In this document: piece after piece, positions 10,057 to 15,159 of the stretch
How positions within the stretch are numbered: the first letter of the stretch is position 1
How the letters are laid out: the number at the start of each line of letters is the position of its first letter
Assembly: GCA_027620015.1 (NCBI GenBank)
Contig: JAQCGH010000019.1
Span: 1-32,383 of the forward strand
Direction of reading: 5' to 3'
DNA from: Cyanobacteriota bacterium
GTDB lineage: Bacteria; Cyanobacteriota; Cyanobacteriia; PCC-6307; Cyanobiaceae
Length of the DNA: 32,383 nt
The notes under the pieces: generated by a model
What the model was told of the DNA's origin: nothing
Database searches by the model: none
What the model saw: only the letters and a program-made list of their open reading frames with translations
Translations under genes and position numbers: made by a program

Positions 10057-10320
10057 ATGAGTGGCGAGCGCGTTGGTTTTCGCTTCAAACACGCTGATGC
10101 TGTGGTGAAGCGCAACCCCCAGGGCCGCTCACGCCGCGGCTGGGTTATGGAGCCTGTGGAGCAGACCACCAGCCGTGGCACCAAAATGCCTGCCTATCGG
10201 ATTCGTTGGCGGGATAGTGAACGTCCCGAGATCGTGCTTCAACACATGTTGATCGCCGACCCGGATCCCACACCGCCGCCCGAGGGAGTCAGCTTGATGC
10301 CCCCGGCACCGAAATCCTAA
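10057..10320 (+). CDS. Small conserved cyanobacterial protein of unknown function
   Basis: An 87-residue basic protein with no domain I can name. It begins MSGERVGFRFKHADAVVKRN, has a central RIRWRDSERPEIVLQHMLI segment that could form beta strands (an SH3-like small barrel is possible but unproven), and ends in a proline-rich tail. It lies 43 bases after lysS in the same direction and converges on the ElyC-family gene with a 15-base gap. Codon use resembles the neighbours. I take it as a real gene because of ATG start, position and composition; its function is unknown. Confidence 0.7.
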   Translation: MSGERVGFRFKHADAVVKRNPQGRSRRGWVMEPVEQTTSRGTKMPAYRIRWRDSERPEIVLQHMLIADPDPTPPPEGVSLMPPAPKS

Positions 10321-10335
10321 TCACGATCAGCCTGG

Positions 10336-11151
10336 TTAAGACCATCCCTTGAGCCGGTAGATCGCCAGCCCCAGGTGCTCTTTGAGGGCAATGCTGCTCA
10401 AGCTGAGCGCCTGGACATCGGGCATCAGCCCGAGCAATACCGATCCCGCTGTGGGCTTGCCAAACAGGGCCCGTGTTGGCAGCTGGTAGTCGCAGGGCAC
10501 TGGGATCACTGTCAAGCCACTGCGCTGTCGGAAGCTGGCCAGGGAGCGCGGCATGTGGAAAGCGCTGGTTACCAGCAGCACCCGCGTCCAGCCAAGTTTC
10601 TTGCCCAGTTTGCCGATGTCGTGGGCTTCCTCTGCCGTGGTGCGGGAGGAGGGGTTGAGCAAGATCTGATCAGCGTGCACTCCCAGTTCTAGGGCCAGAT
10701 CCCGGGCAGAGATTGCTTCTGGTGGGGCAGGATCATTGTCTGTAAAACTCACACGGCCGCCGCTGGCTACAAGCAGGGGCGCAAGGCCACGGCGCACCAG
10801 CTGTACGCCGCGCAGTAATCTGTCGCCGCCTTCCGCTACTTCGACACCCTGGCGGGGTGGCAATGCTGGTCGTAATCCACCCCCCAGCACTACCACCGCA
10901 TCGACCCGGGGAATGGTCTGGGGTGTCAGGGCCGCCGCCTGTTCTTCCAGACCCCAGATCAGCTGGCGGCTGACGACCGGCATGGCGAATAGCCAGATCA
11001 GGCTGATGCCGCTGCTGCTGAGCCAGAGGCTGGACTGGAGCCGGCGGCCGCGGCATTTGGGCGCTGTGGCCAGTCCCAGAAGTTGGAGCAGTAGCCCCAG
11101 TCCTAAGGGGTAAAGCAGCAGCGGTAGAAGTTTGGACAGAAGAAAACCCAT
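10336..11151 (-). CDS. ElyC/SanA/YdcF family protein (DUF218)
   Basis: A 271-residue membrane-anchored protein. Two N-terminal hydrophobic segments (GFLLSKLLPLLLYPLGLGLL and LWLSSSGISLIWLFAMPVV) precede the DUF218 domain. The domain shows VDAVVVLGGGLRP, LVRRGLAPLLVASGG, SSRTTAEEAHDIGKL and VLLVTSAFHMPRSLASF, which are family hallmarks. Members such as ElyC and SanA affect envelope integrity and cell-wall lipid carrier metabolism. I chose the ATG at 11151 because the residues before it are not conserved in type. It lies downstream of the egt genes on the same strand after a 97-base gap, so it may have its own promoter. Confidence 0.87.
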   Translation of the reverse strand: MGFLLSKLLPLLLYPLGLGLLLQLLGLATAPKCRGRRLQSSLWLSSSGISLIWLFAMPVVSRQLIWGLEEQAAALTPQTIPRVDAVVVLGGGLRPALPPRQGVEVAEGGDRLLRGVQLVRRGLAPLLVASGGRVSFTDNDPAPPEAISARDLALELGVHADQILLNPSSRTTAEEAHDIGKLGKKLGWTRVLLVTSAFHMPRSLASFRQRSGLTVIPVPCDYQLPTRALFGKPTAGSVLLGLMPDVQALSLSSIALKEHLGLAIYRLKGWS

Positions 11152-11248
11152 GGCAGCGGCAGGTGATTGTGGGCTACCACAGATTTTGTACAACTAGTGC
11201 GGAATTCTGGAAATGCCGAATTTCGATCCGTTCAGGCCGTCAGCGTCT
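11152..11248 (-). promoter_or_regulatory. Intergenic region upstream of the ElyC-family gene with a short inverted repeat
   Basis: This 97-base gap lies between the stop of the hercynine-associated gene and the ATG of the ElyC-family gene. It includes an inverted repeat, TGTGG-GCTA-CCACA, at 11168-11181, just upstream of the ATG at 11151. That could be a small operator or an mRNA hairpin near the start codon. It has no T-run, so it is not a typical terminator. Function is unproven. Confidence 0.3.
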
Positions 11249-11719
11249 TCAGTGCGTCTGCCGCCGTAGTTGTTCCAGGGCCTGCTCGGCTTCAAAGGCG
11301 GCCCAGTCCTGTTCCAGGTTGGAGGCCCTTGGTGGGTGGGGACGGCTCTCCAGATCGCGTATGTCGCGCTCCACTGCCGCGAAGCTCACCCCCAGCTCAC
11401 CAAGGTGTTGCCAGCGCTGCCGGCCCTGGTCCATTAAGCCTTGCTGGTGGGCTTCGGCGCGCTCGGCTAGGGATGTGGCACCGGCAGAGCGGGCCTTGGC
11501 CAGCCGCTCCTGCCAGCAGCGGATTTCATTGGCCAACTGCAGCAGGGCCTGGCGCTCTTGTTCCGCCTGCCTTTGCAATTGGCGCCGCTGCCCCACCAGC
11601 CTGGCTTGGCTATCGCGCGCTTCCTGCTCGCCAAGCAGGGCTTCCTGGCTGGGGTTTGCGGCGAGAAAGGCCGCCAGTTGCTGATCTAGCTGTGCCTCGA
11701 GTTCGTCGAGCCAGCTCAT
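11249..11719 (-). CDS. Hercynine metabolism-associated protein (TIGR04376-like), coiled coil
   Basis: A 156-residue, highly charged, almost entirely helical protein rich in Glu, Gln, Ala, Leu and Arg. Heptad-like spacing over roughly residues 25-130 predicts a coiled coil; there is no signal peptide and no membrane segment. I recognise it, from memory of the cyanobacterial families, as the larger of two proteins found next to egtB/egtD and named hercynine metabolism protein. The N-terminus MSWLDELEAQLDQQLAAFL is typical. Its ATG overlaps the stop of the small companion gene (ATGA). No enzymatic motif is visible, so it may be a scaffold or partner of EgtB/EgtD; its role is unknown. Confidence 0.75.
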   Translation of the reverse strand: MSWLDELEAQLDQQLAAFLAANPSQEALLGEQEARDSQARLVGQRRQLQRQAEQERQALLQLANEIRCWQERLAKARSAGATSLAERAEAHQQGLMDQGRQRWQHLGELGVSFAAVERDIRDLESRPHPPRASNLEQDWAAFEAEQALEQLRRQTH

Positions 11720-11952
11720 GGGGAGGGTTGCCCATCGGGCGTGGTTATCAACGGCGCCTCAATCTCCTGTTGAAGCGGTGTGATGGCCGCTTCGCGGGAG
11801 CGCAGTAGCAGCTGGGTGAGTCGGGCTATCGCCCCCTCTCCTAGGTCCTGGCTGCCGATGCGATCAAAGGCGTTGCGATATAGCTCCTCCAGCTCGGCTA
11901 TCAGGCATTCGCGTACGTGACGCATGGCAGCTCGTTGTTCTTCTCGACCCAT
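11716..11952 (-). CDS. Hercynine metabolism small protein (TIGR04375-like)
   Basis: A 78-residue protein, mostly helical, starting MGREEQRAAMRHVRECLIAE and ending in a proline-containing tail. It contains one Cys (residue 16) and no obvious catalytic motif. From memory of the family, this small protein accompanies egtD and egtB in picocyanobacteria. It starts 17 bases after the egtD stop and its own stop overlaps the next ATG by four bases, so four genes (egtB, egtD, this one and the coiled-coil protein) form one operon. Its function has not been established. Confidence 0.72.
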   Translation of the reverse strand: MGREEQRAAMRHVRECLIAELEELYRNAFDRIGSQDLGEGAIARLTQLLLRSREAAITPLQQEIEAPLITTPDGQPSP

Positions 11953-11969
11953 GGCGTTGTTGCCTCTGC

Positions 11970-12923
11970 TTAAGAGTCTGCCGTCACCAGCAGATGCAGG
12001 GATAGGTCCCCGGCTGGATCACTCCAGCGTCCCAGCGGCTGCCAGCCGGAGCTTTCTGCTAATGCGGTGAACTCCTTTGGGCCGTATTTGACGCTGTATT
12101 CGGTGATTAGGGGCTCCCCTGCTGCGAAATTCCAAATCTCGCCCGCTAACTGCACCGATTGGTCTTGGCGGCTTACCAGGGCCATAGCAATGCGGTTGTG
12201 CTCCGGTTGCCAACGGGCGCTGTAGGCGAAGGCTTCGGGGTTGAAGTGGCCCGCCAGGTCGCGATTTAGCCGCACCAGCAGGTTGCGGGCGAAGGCTGCT
12301 GATATGCCGGCGGCATCGTTGTAAGCGGCCTCCAGTCGCTCCACTGCTTTGGGCTGGTCGATGCCTATCAGCAGCTGGGAGCTAGGGCCTAGCAGCTGGC
12401 CCAGCTGCCGCAGCAGCCTCTGCGCTTCATCGGGGCTGAAGTTGCCGATTGAGCTGCCTGGATAGAAACCCAGACGCCGCTGGCCGCTTAGCAAGGGGTG
12501 TGCGGGCAGTTGCGGCAGGGCGCTGTAATCGCAGCAGATGCCCAGCACTGGGACCAGCGGGTGGCGATCCTGGAGCTCCTGGCATGCGGGACCCAGGTGG
12601 TCGGCGCTGATGTCGAGGGCGACGTAGGCGGGGGGGCGCAACGCTTGAAGTAGGGGCCCCACCTTGCGAGCGTTGCCGGCGCCAAACTCCACCAATACCC
12701 CAGAACCCAGAGCTGCTGCCAGCTCGGGCGCCCGCGCCTCTAGCAGGGCCATTTCAGTGCGTGTGAGGCCATATTCCGGCTGCTCGCAGATCTCCTCAAA
12801 TAGCCGTGAGCCTTCGGCGTCGTAAAGCAGCCAAGCGGGAAGCTGACGCGGTTGCCGGGCCATGCCTTCGAGCACCAGCCGCCGCATGTCGGCCGGTTCG
12901 GGGTGAAGGTCGATCAGTTGCAT
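11970..12923 (-). CDS. egtD: L-histidine N(alpha)-methyltransferase (hercynine synthase)
   Basis: Transfers three methyl groups from SAM to the alpha-amino group of histidine, giving hercynine. The 317-residue protein matches family length. Seen: LPAWLLYDAEGSRLFEEICE and LTRTEMALLE (28-61), the SAM-binding VEFGAGNARKV (78-88) with LDIS at 103-106, and FYPGSSIGNFSP (153-164) carrying Asn161. The late segment ITEYSVKY carries Glu275; Asn161 and Glu275 correspond to the histidine-binding Asn and Glu of mycobacterial EgtD. The ATG at 12923 lies one base after the egtB stop, preceded by a G-run; an ATG at 12935 would overlap egtB. Confidence 0.93.
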   Translation of the reverse strand: MQLIDLHPEPADMRRLVLEGMARQPRQLPAWLLYDAEGSRLFEEICEQPEYGLTRTEMALLEARAPELAAALGSGVLVEFGAGNARKVGPLLQALRPPAYVALDISADHLGPACQELQDRHPLVPVLGICCDYSALPQLPAHPLLSGQRRLGFYPGSSIGNFSPDEAQRLLRQLGQLLGPSSQLLIGIDQPKAVERLEAAYNDAAGISAAFARNLLVRLNRDLAGHFNPEAFAYSARWQPEHNRIAMALVSRQDQSVQLAGEIWNFAAGEPLITEYSVKYGPKEFTALAESSGWQPLGRWSDPAGDLSLHLLVTADS

Positions 12924-12924
12924 T

Positions 12925-14076
12925 TCAGCCCCCATCGCGCGCCAGCCGTAGACCGGCTGCAAGCCAGCGGCTAGCGGGTGGATAGAAGTTGCGGTAGCTG
13001 GGCCGTTCGTGGCCAGGCGGGGTTAGGAAGCAGCTGCCGCGCAACACCATCTGGGAACTCATGAACTTGCCGTTGTATTCCCCCACTGCACCGACCGCCG
13101 GCGCGAAGCCTGGATAGGGCCTGTAAGGGCTGGCGGTCCACTGCCACAACACCCCGAACGCCTGCCCCAGTTTGGGTGCCAGAAGCTCCCATTCAGCTTC
13201 GCCCGGCAGCCGGGCGCCGGCCCAGCGGGCGTAGGCATCGGCCTCAAACCAGCAAAGGTGCCGCACCGGCAGCTCGGGGCGCCGGGGCTGGCGCCCCGCT
13301 AGAGAAAACTCCTCGCCATCGCGCCAGTAGCGAGGCGCCTGCCAGTGCCGGGCCTGCACAATTGACCAGCCCTCGCTCATCCACAGCTCCGGGCGCCTGT
13401 AGCCGCCATCCGCAATGAAGGCCGCAAACTCGCCATTGCTCACCAAACGGGAGCTAATCGCAAAGGGTTCGAGCCACTGGCGGTGCTTGGGCGCCTCGTT
13501 GTCGAAATGAAAGCTGCCCCCTGGATGGCCGATTTCCACCAGACCTCCCTCGTGCTGCAGCCAAGTGGTTTCTTGGGCAACGCTCGCCAGATAAACAGCC
13601 TCAGGATTCGGGCCGTATGTCGGCTCCAGCGGGTTGCGGCTGAAGCCATCAAGCAGGTCCATGAGCAGCAGCTCCTGGTGCTGCTGCTCGTGCTGCAGGC
13701 CCAGTTCCACCAGCTCTAGCCGGGGATCGCCGGGCTCCAGTTGCTCCAACAGAGTGAGCATGGCCCCATCCAGCCGCTGCCGCCAGGTCAGCACCTCGGC
13801 CAGGACCGGCCGGCTGAGCAGGCCCCGCTGGGGCCGGGGGTGGCGCTCTCCCACTGCGTCGTAATAGCTATTGAAAAGAAAGCTCCAGCCGTCCGGCGAA
13901 ATTGGCTTACGCAGCACAAATTGCTCAAAAAACCAGGTGGTGTGCCCCAAGTGCCATTTGGGTGGGCTGGCATCGGACATGCCTTGCAGGCAGAAGTCTT
14001 CGGGCTGCAGGGGAGCCACCAGATCGAGGCTGCGTTGGCGCACCTGCGCGTAGCGCGCCTTCAGCTCCTGCCCCAT
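12925..14076 (-). CDS. egtB: EgtB-type sulfoxide synthase (hercynine oxygenase)
   Basis: Non-haem iron enzyme joining hercynine to a thiol (cysteine or gamma-glutamylcysteine) with O2 to give the sulfoxide precursor of ergothioneine. The 383-residue protein has an N-terminal DinB-like four-helix domain with the likely iron ligands His45 (in HLGHTTWFFEQF), His129 and His133 (in HEQQHQELLLMD). A C-terminal FGE-sulfatase-like domain follows (VEIGHPGGSFHFDNEAPKH, NGEFAAFIADGGYRRPELW, and MVLRGSCFLTPP near the end). It is shorter than mycobacterial EgtB, as cysteine-using bacterial forms often are; the thiol choice cannot be read with certainty. First gene of the minus-strand operon. Confidence 0.92.
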   Translation of the reverse strand: MGQELKARYAQVRQRSLDLVAPLQPEDFCLQGMSDASPPKWHLGHTTWFFEQFVLRKPISPDGWSFLFNSYYDAVGERHPRPQRGLLSRPVLAEVLTWRQRLDGAMLTLLEQLEPGDPRLELVELGLQHEQQHQELLLMDLLDGFSRNPLEPTYGPNPEAVYLASVAQETTWLQHEGGLVEIGHPGGSFHFDNEAPKHRQWLEPFAISSRLVSNGEFAAFIADGGYRRPELWMSEGWSIVQARHWQAPRYWRDGEEFSLAGRQPRRPELPVRHLCWFEADAYARWAGARLPGEAEWELLAPKLGQAFGVLWQWTASPYRPYPGFAPAVGAVGEYNGKFMSSQMVLRGSCFLTPPGHERPSYRNFYPPASRWLAAGLRLARDGG

Positions 14077-14157: not shown

Positions 14158-15159
14158 ATGGCCGGCATCACTTCAGGGTTCGTGGGCGCCGTTGGCAACA
14201 CGCCCCTGATCCGGCTCAACGCCCTGAGCGAGCAAACGGGCTGCGAGATCCTCGGCAAGGCCGAATTCATGAATCCTGGGGGGTCTGTGAAGGATCGCGC
14301 CGCCCTGGGCATCCTGCTGGAGGCGGAGGAGCAAGGGCTGCTGAAACCGGGAGGCACGGTGGTGGAAGGCACCGCTGGCAACACCGGAATCGGTCTCACC
14401 CACCTCTGCAACGCCCGTGGCTACAGGGCCCTGATCGTGATTCCCGATACCCAGTCGGCTGAGAAGATCGGCCTGCTGCGCAGCCTTGGAGCTGAGGTGC
14501 GCACCGTGCCGGCGGTGCCTTACCGGGATCCAAACAACTACGTGCGGCTTTCGGGCCGTATCGCCGCCGAAACGCCGGGGGCCGTGTGGGCCAACCAGTT
14601 CGACAATTTGGCTAACCGCCGCGCCCATTTCGATTCCACCGGTCCGGAGATTTGGCAGCAAACTGGTGGTGTGGTGGATGCCTGGGTGGCGGCCACCGGT
14701 ACTGGTGGCACCTATGCCGGGGTTGCCCTTTACCTGAAGCAGCAAAAACCAGCCGTGCGCTGTGTGCTGGCCGACCCTCATGGCAGTGCCCTACATAGCT
14801 GGGCTAGTCGGGGTGAGCTGGTCAGTGAGGGAAGTTCGATCACCGAGGGGATTGGTAACAGCCGCGTTACCGCCAATCTGGAAGGTGCTCCCATCGATGA
14901 TGCAGTGCGCATCGACGACGCGACCGCGCTTGAGACTATCTATCAACTGCTGTGGCAGGAGGGCTTATTTATGGGGGGCTCGGTGGGCATCAATGTGGCA
15001 GCGGCGGTGGAAACGGCTCGGCGACTTGGTCCTGGCCACACGATCGTGACCGTGCTGTGCGACAGCGGTGACCGCTACCGATCGCGGCTCTATGACCGCG
15101 ATTGGCTTGCTGGCAAGGGGTTACACCAACCCCTGCGGCCTTCGCTGGAGGTGGGCTGA
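14158..15159 (+). CDS. PLP-dependent cysteine synthase family protein (CysK-like)
   Basis: A 333-residue fold-type II PLP enzyme of the O-acetylserine sulfhydrylase / cystathionine beta-synthase family. The PLP lysine is Lys45 in NPGGSVKDRAAL; the phosphate loop GTGGTYAG is present, as is a C-terminal VTVLCDSGDRY. The substrate loop reads GTAGNTG (71-77) where housekeeping CysK has TSGNTG, so the enzyme may not be an ordinary O-acetylserine sulfhydrylase. Fungal cysteine synthase paralogues carry the same Ala. The ATG at 14158 is used; a TTG at 14146 would add four residues. Divergent from egtB, and its stop overlaps the next ATG (TGATG). Confidence 0.88.
   Translation: MAGITSGFVGAVGNTPLIRLNALSEQTGCEILGKAEFMNPGGSVKDRAALGILLEAEEQGLLKPGGTVVEGTAGNTGIGLTHLCNARGYRALIVIPDTQSAEKIGLLRSLGAEVRTVPAVPYRDPNNYVRLSGRIAAETPGAVWANQFDNLANRRAHFDSTGPEIWQQTGGVVDAWVAATGTGGTYAGVALYLKQQKPAVRCVLADPHGSALHSWASRGELVSEGSSITEGIGNSRVTANLEGAPIDDAVRIDDATALETIYQLLWQEGLFMGGSVGINVAAAVETARRLGPGHTIVTVLCDSGDRYRSRLYDRDWLAGKGLHQPLRPSLEVG

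Follow-up and report, generated by a model that had tools for sequence, protein, structure and literature searches.

A probable compact PspA/ESCRT-III-like protein and a putative helical-hairpin partner encoded in the egtBD operon of Cyanobiaceae

Introduction

Vipp1 (IM30) and PspA, both of family PF04012, are the cyanobacterial ESCRT-III proteins that the available excerpt of a 2026 review names, besides associated ESCRT-like ones (PMC13051332). According to the excerpted structural work on the Vipp1 polymer, helix alpha5 of one subunit binds the hairpin tip of another, and the substitutions L86C and L193C cross-link this hairpin-alpha5 contact between rungs (PMC8281802). Elsewhere, small proteins of the YjfI/BacA type have been proposed as partners or regulators of the PspA homologues YjfJ/BacB, and such dyads also occur with genes for polyamine synthases and glutathionyl-spermidine-type ligases, as stated in excerpts of two papers (PMC11237479, PMC10948618). 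Here we analyze a 32,383-nucleotide stretch of cyanobacterial DNA (contig JAQCGH010000019.1; hereafter the window), in which two small genes, encoding proteins of 78 and 156 residues, follow the ergothioneine genes egtB and egtD. From the names of relative loci we infer that the window belongs to the family Cyanobiaceae.

Both small genes lie on the reverse strand, at positions 11716..11952 (78 residues; TIGR04374, 'hercynine metabolism small protein', 119.9 bits, cut-off 70) and 11249..11719 (156 residues; TIGR04375, 'hercynine metabolism protein', 180.5 bits, cut-off 125). These family names derive from gene neighbourhood only, as the initial annotation of this DNA had stated, and neither protein reaches a Pfam cut-off. 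The open-access literature yielded no use of either family name or of the identifiers TIGR04375 and TIGR04376 (TIGR04374 was not searched), hercynine, cyanobacteria and coiled-coil never occurred together in it, and papers joining ergothioneine with ESCRT-III concerned disease topics, judging by titles and the first lines of abstracts. To our knowledge, the role of ergothioneine in cyanobacteria has been little tested. We put at about 0.6 the probability that the 156-residue protein is a compact relative of PspA and other ESCRT-III proteins, with the 78-residue helical hairpin as its partner, and that the pair shares expression with ergothioneine synthesis without catalysing a step of the pathway.

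Results

Kinship of the 156-residue protein to Vipp1 and PspA

The 156-residue protein resembles TIGR04376, a family whose name states no function, at 47 bits (cut-off 125; hidden Markov model E-value 3e-12), and TIGR04375 and TIGR04376 align to each other with a hhalign E-value of 1.5e-23 and 14 conserved positions in register. Aligned to a set of cyanobacterial Vipp1/PspA sequences, TIGR04376 gave an E-value of 3e-11 over 188 columns, collinear and from residue 1; its profile, built on 11 sequences, found Vipp1/PspA chains in PDB rows 1-9 (best E-value 2.3e-7), again from residue 1. A mixed alignment reached 4e-9 against the same set, with Vipp1/PspA in PDB rows 1-8 of its profile (best E-value 1.2e-4), whereas ATP-synthase b, the sole unrelated helical control family, gave values of 0.11, 0.16 and 0.17. 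Loci kept in these alignments numbered 29/30 plus the window (A1, mixed), 20/29 plus the window (A2), 14/20 plus the window (A3, TIGR04375), 21/30 (A5, Vipp1/PspA), 51/78 plus the window (A6), 34/70 plus the window (A7) and 12/30 (A8), the rows left out being near-copies, those of the own genome and those with unreadable ends. On this profile homology, which holds via TIGR04376 and stays below the Pfam gathering score, kinship of the 156-residue protein to PspA/Vipp1 appears very likely.

An AlphaFold2 model (pLDDT 86), built on 52 Cyanobiaceae sequences only and therefore fairly independent, predicts helices alpha0 (residues 3-21), alpha1 (23-78) and alpha2 (82-125) and a C-terminal helix (136-155), with alpha4 absent after the elbow and the stretch 126-135 unstructured. 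At the level of this predicted model, the ESCRT-III hallmark of an alpha1/alpha2-3 hairpin with a C-terminal alpha5 is present. Foldseek placed Vipp1/PspA in PDB rows 1-6 and 8-13, that is 12 of the first 13 (best E-value 5.5e-3; first row 8qbs, the Vipp1-F197K/L200K mutant), and the model superimposed on E. coli PspA (4whe) at 1.6 Å over 103 columns. The first ten rows of VIA-align also held Snf7 and CHMP2A-CHMP3.

Individual residues point the same way. At an offset of +2, P23, W69, R72, A76, L84 and A88 meet conserved Vipp1/PspA positions, and the same six positions coincide at +2 in TIGR04376 (six against four at the next offset); coincidences with ATP-synthase b numbered at most 4 for TIGR04375 and 3 for TIGR04376. 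L84 falls on Vipp1 L86, and the invariant L135, W139 and F142 fall on Vipp1 L193, F197 and L200 when hhalign alignments are chained via TIGR04376. Thus, judged from sequence, both halves of the Vipp1 polymer contact seem to be kept while alpha4 is lost. Helix alpha0 is amphipathic, with a moment of 0.56 as compared to 0.49 in the cyanobacterial Vipp1/PspA set. The likeness to Vipp1/IM30 and PspA accordingly extends over alpha0, the alpha1/alpha2 hairpin, the C-terminal interface helix and the contact residues; the differences are the length (156 residues, as against mostly 233-259 in the aligned Vipp1/PspA relatives), the missing alpha4, an acidic alpha0 and the lack of a PF04012 match.

Several of our results weigh against this reading, some of them in favour of a generic coiled coil, whose resemblance to PspA/Vipp1 would stem from a bias in helical composition. 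TIGR04375 alone aligned to the Vipp1/PspA set with an E-value of 0.046 and had no Vipp1 among its PDB rows, so that the sequence case runs through TIGR04376. Its best PDB row, at 1.2e-4, belonged to a lysozyme entry of which no single stretch passed by itself, which implies that an E-value near 1e-4, such as that of the mixed profile, can be spurious here. Pfam matches of the mixed-alignment members were all weak and went to several unrelated helical families, with GrpE in 8/30 and PspA_IM30 in 7/30; for PF04012, these seven matched at E<=1 (best 6e-4), and the window's own protein had no match at that threshold. Foldseek returned no row at an E-value <0.001, VIA-align did not separate Vipp1 (Z 11.0) from a BBSome hairpin (Z 12.3), and the coincidences of TIGR04375 at +2 (8) hardly exceed those at the next offset (7). 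Finally, alpha0 carries a mean charge of -2.4, as opposed to +1.9 in Vipp1/PspA, and so is not cationic; any membrane contact must be different or go through a partner. Nevertheless, Vipp1/PspA are the top PDB sequences for TIGR04376 and the top PDB folds for the model, the TIGR04376 alignment is collinear from residue 1, and the lone control family gives nothing, all of which makes an unrelated coiled coil quite improbable.

Besides the 156-residue protein, the window's genome encodes a separate PspA_IM30 protein. Among 56 Cyanobiaceae genomes picked by gene content, PspA_IM30 was found in 28/28 with the 156-residue family (including G308, where the family match is weak) and in 14/28 without it. 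The remaining 14 (G107, G114, G161, G163, G169, G209, G217, G219, G243, G249, G259, G261, G333 and G349) showed no PspA_IM30 match and hence have no Vipp1 by this test.

TIGR04376 in cyanobacteria outside the family

Across 292 genomes of the phylum, TIGR04375 exceeded its cut-off only in Cyanobiaceae (20/36), and the model found sub-threshold relatives in 100 of 103 genomes from the rest of the class. The relative from G036, the sole one run against NCBIfam, is a TIGR04376 protein (237 bits, cut-off 125). Since nearly every such genome holds a single match (G095 and G147 hold two), TIGR04375 and TIGR04376 appear to represent a single gene in two lineages. A tree separated the two families jointly from Vipp1/PspA with support of 100/100 (TIGR04376 alone, 95/92; TIGR04375 alone, 89/54), but the program warned of long branches meeting, and the tree is only consistent with sister families. 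TIGR04376 differs from the 156-residue protein by a longer linker before the last helix and from its gene by an occurrence outside Cyanobiaceae, where it was not found near egtD.

Indeed, in the 93 of these 100 genomes with EgtD over its cut-off, the closest distance on a shared contig was 37 kb (G085), as compared by eye from listed positions, with many pairs lying on separate draft contigs whose ends were unchecked. EgtD over cut-off was missing in 7/100 genomes: G036, G111, G147, G177 and G187, as well as G183 and G268, which hold fragments only. These fragments contain internal stops (G183, C1 ~1872286-1872827; G268, C1 ~2770538-2770732), so that egtD is apparently decaying in these two cyanobacteria, both of which retain a gene resembling TIGR04376. 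Most outside genomes hold EgtD at another site, and mere co-presence there is therefore uninformative; the lack of linkage to egtD is mild evidence against a role in the pathway. In the named control, Synechococcus elongatus, both small families gave matches below their cut-offs and EgtD gave none. With regard to other neighbours, the G036 relative sits between a GDP-fucose synthase gene and a CHAD gene, and the G241 relative overlaps a MazG open reading frame (ORF).

Taken together with the predicted fold, the 156-residue protein would be the Cyanobiaceae form of TIGR04376 and a compact ESCRT-III member of the PspA/Vipp1 branch; in TIGR04376, cyanobacteria would then have a third family of this kind in addition to Vipp1 and PspA. 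The 156-residue protein retains an N-terminal helix of amphipathic character, the hairpin of alpha1 and alpha2 and a C-terminal helix like that of the polymer contact but lacks alpha4, and it may polymerize on or near membranes and stabilize them under oxidative or light stress. Its link to ergothioneine would then be one of joint expression, not of catalysis. A broader proposal, which we advance tentatively and hold at slightly below even odds, is that this third, compact ESCRT-III family, alpha4-less at least in Cyanobiaceae and either unnamed in databases or labelled as a hercynine protein, is present in nearly all cyanobacteria except those with the smallest genomes, and that picocyanobacteria have wired it, with the 78-residue partner, into the ergothioneine operon, so that one transcript would deliver an antioxidant and a membrane-repair polymer. 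Should the PspA-like reading hold, a misdirecting database label would be put right, and a widespread protein would join the small set of ESCRT-III proteins known from cyanobacteria. Ergothioneine would also be tied to membrane maintenance in abundant phototrophs, in a way open to testing.

The 78-residue protein as a candidate partner

The AlphaFold2 model of the 78-residue protein (pLDDT 88) is a two-helix hairpin (residues 3-33 and 39-65), and the family has invariant residues up to a conserved EIExPLIT tail. No significant match to its fold was obtained in Foldseek (best E-value 1.6) or among PDB sequences (0.13). The tight coupling of its gene to the 156-residue gene and the presence of the family in 152 of the 153 genomes with the 156-residue family (census below) suggest it to be a partner of the 156-residue protein, although ten genomes hold the 78-residue family by itself, which argues against a strict partnership. 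The co-translated hairpin might thus act as partner or regulator in the manner of YjfI/BacA for YjfJ/BacB, dyads which the locus resembles, as far as the excerpts go, in placing a small-protein gene beside that of a PspA homologue, within operons where genes of small-molecule metabolism may also occur. The likeness ends at the protein level: YjfI/BacA is a DUF2170 protein, CesT/Tir-like, whereas the 78-residue protein is a predicted two-helix hairpin.

Outside Cyanobiaceae, TIGR04374 gave sub-cut-off matches in G036, G058, G083, G118 and G211, besides the S. elongatus control. A custom profile of the 78-residue family matched in 12/145 genomes of the class, three of them outside the family and one with an internal stop; the match in G036 is circular, as this genome was part of the profile. 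A phage origin was considered and dropped, as tblastn gave no match in 50,697 phage records.

Co-occurrence with egtD and survival at egtBD-less loci

We next turn to the reading that the pair are accessory proteins that scaffold or regulate EgtB/EgtD. A census of 250 Cyanobiaceae genomes of 90% or higher completeness (presence called at an E-value of 0.001; EgtB outside the census) found EgtD in 145, the 156-residue family in 153 and the 78-residue family in 164; the curated cut-offs were passed in 144 genomes for the 156-residue family and in 152 for the 78-residue family. All three families were present together in 143/250 and none of them in 85/250, the rest holding EgtD and the 78-residue family (2), both small families without EgtD (9), the 156-residue family alone (1, a weak match) or the 78-residue family alone (10). 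Strong co-occurrence within the family, which the initial annotation had led us to expect, is thus borne out: 143/145 EgtD genomes hold both small families, and a 78-residue match is present in 145/145, at only ~1e-5 in G454, G458, G461 and G467. Conversely, 95/105 EgtD-less genomes lack the 156-residue family and 86/105 the 78-residue family, so that the association is strong and favours the 'hercynine metabolism' label. Given these joint absences, there may be a real ergothioneine link; coupling along the whole operon likewise favours accessory proteins. The genomes are not independent, however, and those inspected that have none of the three families are small, many of them of the Prochlorococcus type.

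Co-occurrence with egtD is not strict for either small family, EgtD being absent in 10/153 genomes with the 156-residue family and in 19/164 with the 78-residue family. The refuting possibility that these families are common without egtD therefore applies to such a minority, and is offset by the 95/105 EgtD-less genomes without the 156-residue family. To see what remains in the absence of EgtD, we read the locus in all nine EgtD-less genomes holding both small families. In eight loci (G266, G276, G312, G322, G325, G328, G397 and G451), egtBD alone is missing and the flanking neighbours are intact; the 156-residue gene is kept in 8/8 and the 78-residue gene in 7/8. The exception is G312, where tblastn found no 78-residue gene at the locus despite a profile match in the genome, as was also the case in G315. 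Two census genomes stand outside the eight: G439, the ninth, has a contig edge beside the 78-residue gene, and in G308 the 156-residue match is weak (8.5e-5). By label the eight genomes span seven genera, which suggests repeated loss.

Against accessory proteins, then, stand the survival of the pair at these loci, the ten genomes that retain the 78-residue family alone, the S. elongatus control and the distance of relatives elsewhere from egtD, and further the reverse cases: G274 and G315 have egtBD and no 156-residue gene, and in eight named loci the egtD and 156-residue genes lie 26-98 bases apart with no 78-residue gene found between them. The ten genomes with the 78-residue family alone also weigh on our own proposal, as a dedicated partner should not persist alone. 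On balance, the idea that the pair serves hercynine chemistry, as first suggested, is not well supported; we judge an accessory role unlikely and the 'hercynine metabolism' label probably misleading. As a side observation from the window's own genus, locus L225 (G274, C2, 1900-7400) retains egtB, egtD and the 78-residue gene, and no 156-residue or DUF218 gene was found there.

Operon structure in relatives

The operon predicted initially was reproduced from the window's ORFs and junctions: egtB, egtD, the 78-residue gene and the 156-residue gene follow one another on the reverse strand, with spacings of 1 base and 17 bases and a 4-base ATGA overlap (11716..11719), and all four products exceed curated NCBIfam cut-offs. 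A profile scan for the 156-residue family provided relatives, the best 80 of 85 being kept as named loci (record titles include Cyanobium, Synechococcus, Prochlorococcus, Vulcanococcus, Aphanothece and others); this set overlaps in part with the genome census (L115/G322, L144/G439). Where both genes could be placed, with start codons picked by script, the junction of the 78- and 156-residue genes was the tightest of the operon (4-base overlap in 57/68 relatives, 1-base in 8/68); egtD overlapped the 78-residue gene by 4 bases in 25/56, and egtB overlapped egtD in 45/54. Coupling is hence more than chance, in line with the translational coupling proposed at the outset.

Both egtD and egtB lie upstream of the 156-residue gene in 67/69 loci with at least 3 kb of upstream sequence (exceptions, L115 and L180), and the recurrent order is lysS, [DUF218], 156, 78, egtD, egtB, [cysteine synthase], a kinase-like gene and smpB. 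This stable lysS-smpB neighbourhood raises the alternative that the small genes are a conserved passenger pair, co-transcribed without a functional link, an interpretation that overlaps with ours on the identity of the proteins. The neighbours are the same with or without egtBD, and the frequency of small, Prochlorococcus-type genomes among those with none of the three families would fit it too; overlapping junctions kept family-wide and the constant gene order in the compared loci argue otherwise. We therefore rate passenger genes as a minority possibility, only a little less doubtful than accessory proteins, and retain a co-expressed PspA-like protein with its partner as the favoured explanation.

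The ergothioneine genes and further neighbours

The window's egtD (11970..12923, reverse strand, ATG at 12923) encodes a histidine N-alpha-methyltransferase, i.e. hercynine synthase (TIGR03438, 364 bits; PF10017), and egtB (12925..14076, reverse strand; TIGR03440, 495 bits) a sulfoxide synthase. The latter scored 397 bits against 6o6l (Cabther EgtB), 398 bits against 8qf6 and 6qki, and 118 bits against 4x8b, which we take to be the mycobacterial EgtB; the closest solved EgtB is thus that of Chloracidobacterium thermophilum. According to an excerpt, this enzyme prefers cysteine and mycobacterial EgtB gamma-Glu-Cys (PMC10903977). By this similarity and the lack of EgtC, the window's EgtB is probably of the cysteine-using type, and the absence of EgtA and EgtC would then be expected. 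EgtC over cut-off was found in 0/13 Cyanobiaceae tested, the window's genome included, and in 8/12 other cyanobacteria; EgtE was found in 0/25 cyanobacteria. A published excerpt likewise reports egtB, egtC and egtD in cyanobacteria but not egtE, and the use of glutathione by Synechocystis (PMC10295655). As to the early remark that later steps must lie elsewhere or differ, given no EgtA, EgtC or C-S lyase gene nearby, the lack of EgtE is general among the cyanobacteria tested, and that of EgtA and EgtC would need no special explanation with a cysteine-using EgtB. Most simply, the pathway would convert histidine into hercynine and this in turn into hercynyl-cysteine sulfoxide. The best EgtE-like hit in the window's genome adjoins an ORF read as SufD-like; it was taken as SufS and dropped.

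Downstream of the 156-residue gene, after 55 bases and on the same strand, begins an ORF for a DUF218 (ElyC/SanA-like) protein (10336..11193, reverse strand; PF02698, 6e-26; ElyC model below cut-off; start codon unsure). A DUF218 gene is present in 46/77 relatives having more than 2 kb in this direction and may be a fifth, envelope-related operon member. Next to lysS, an 87-residue ORF (10057-10320, forward strand) has no family match; ORFs of like size adjoin lysS in many relative loci. On the other side, 81 bases from egtB and divergent from it, lies a cysteine synthase gene of the PRK10717 type (14158..15159, forward strand; 525 bits, cut-off 387). This neighbour recurs in 41/64 relatives with egtBD and sufficient flank, and would fit a cysteine-using EgtB.

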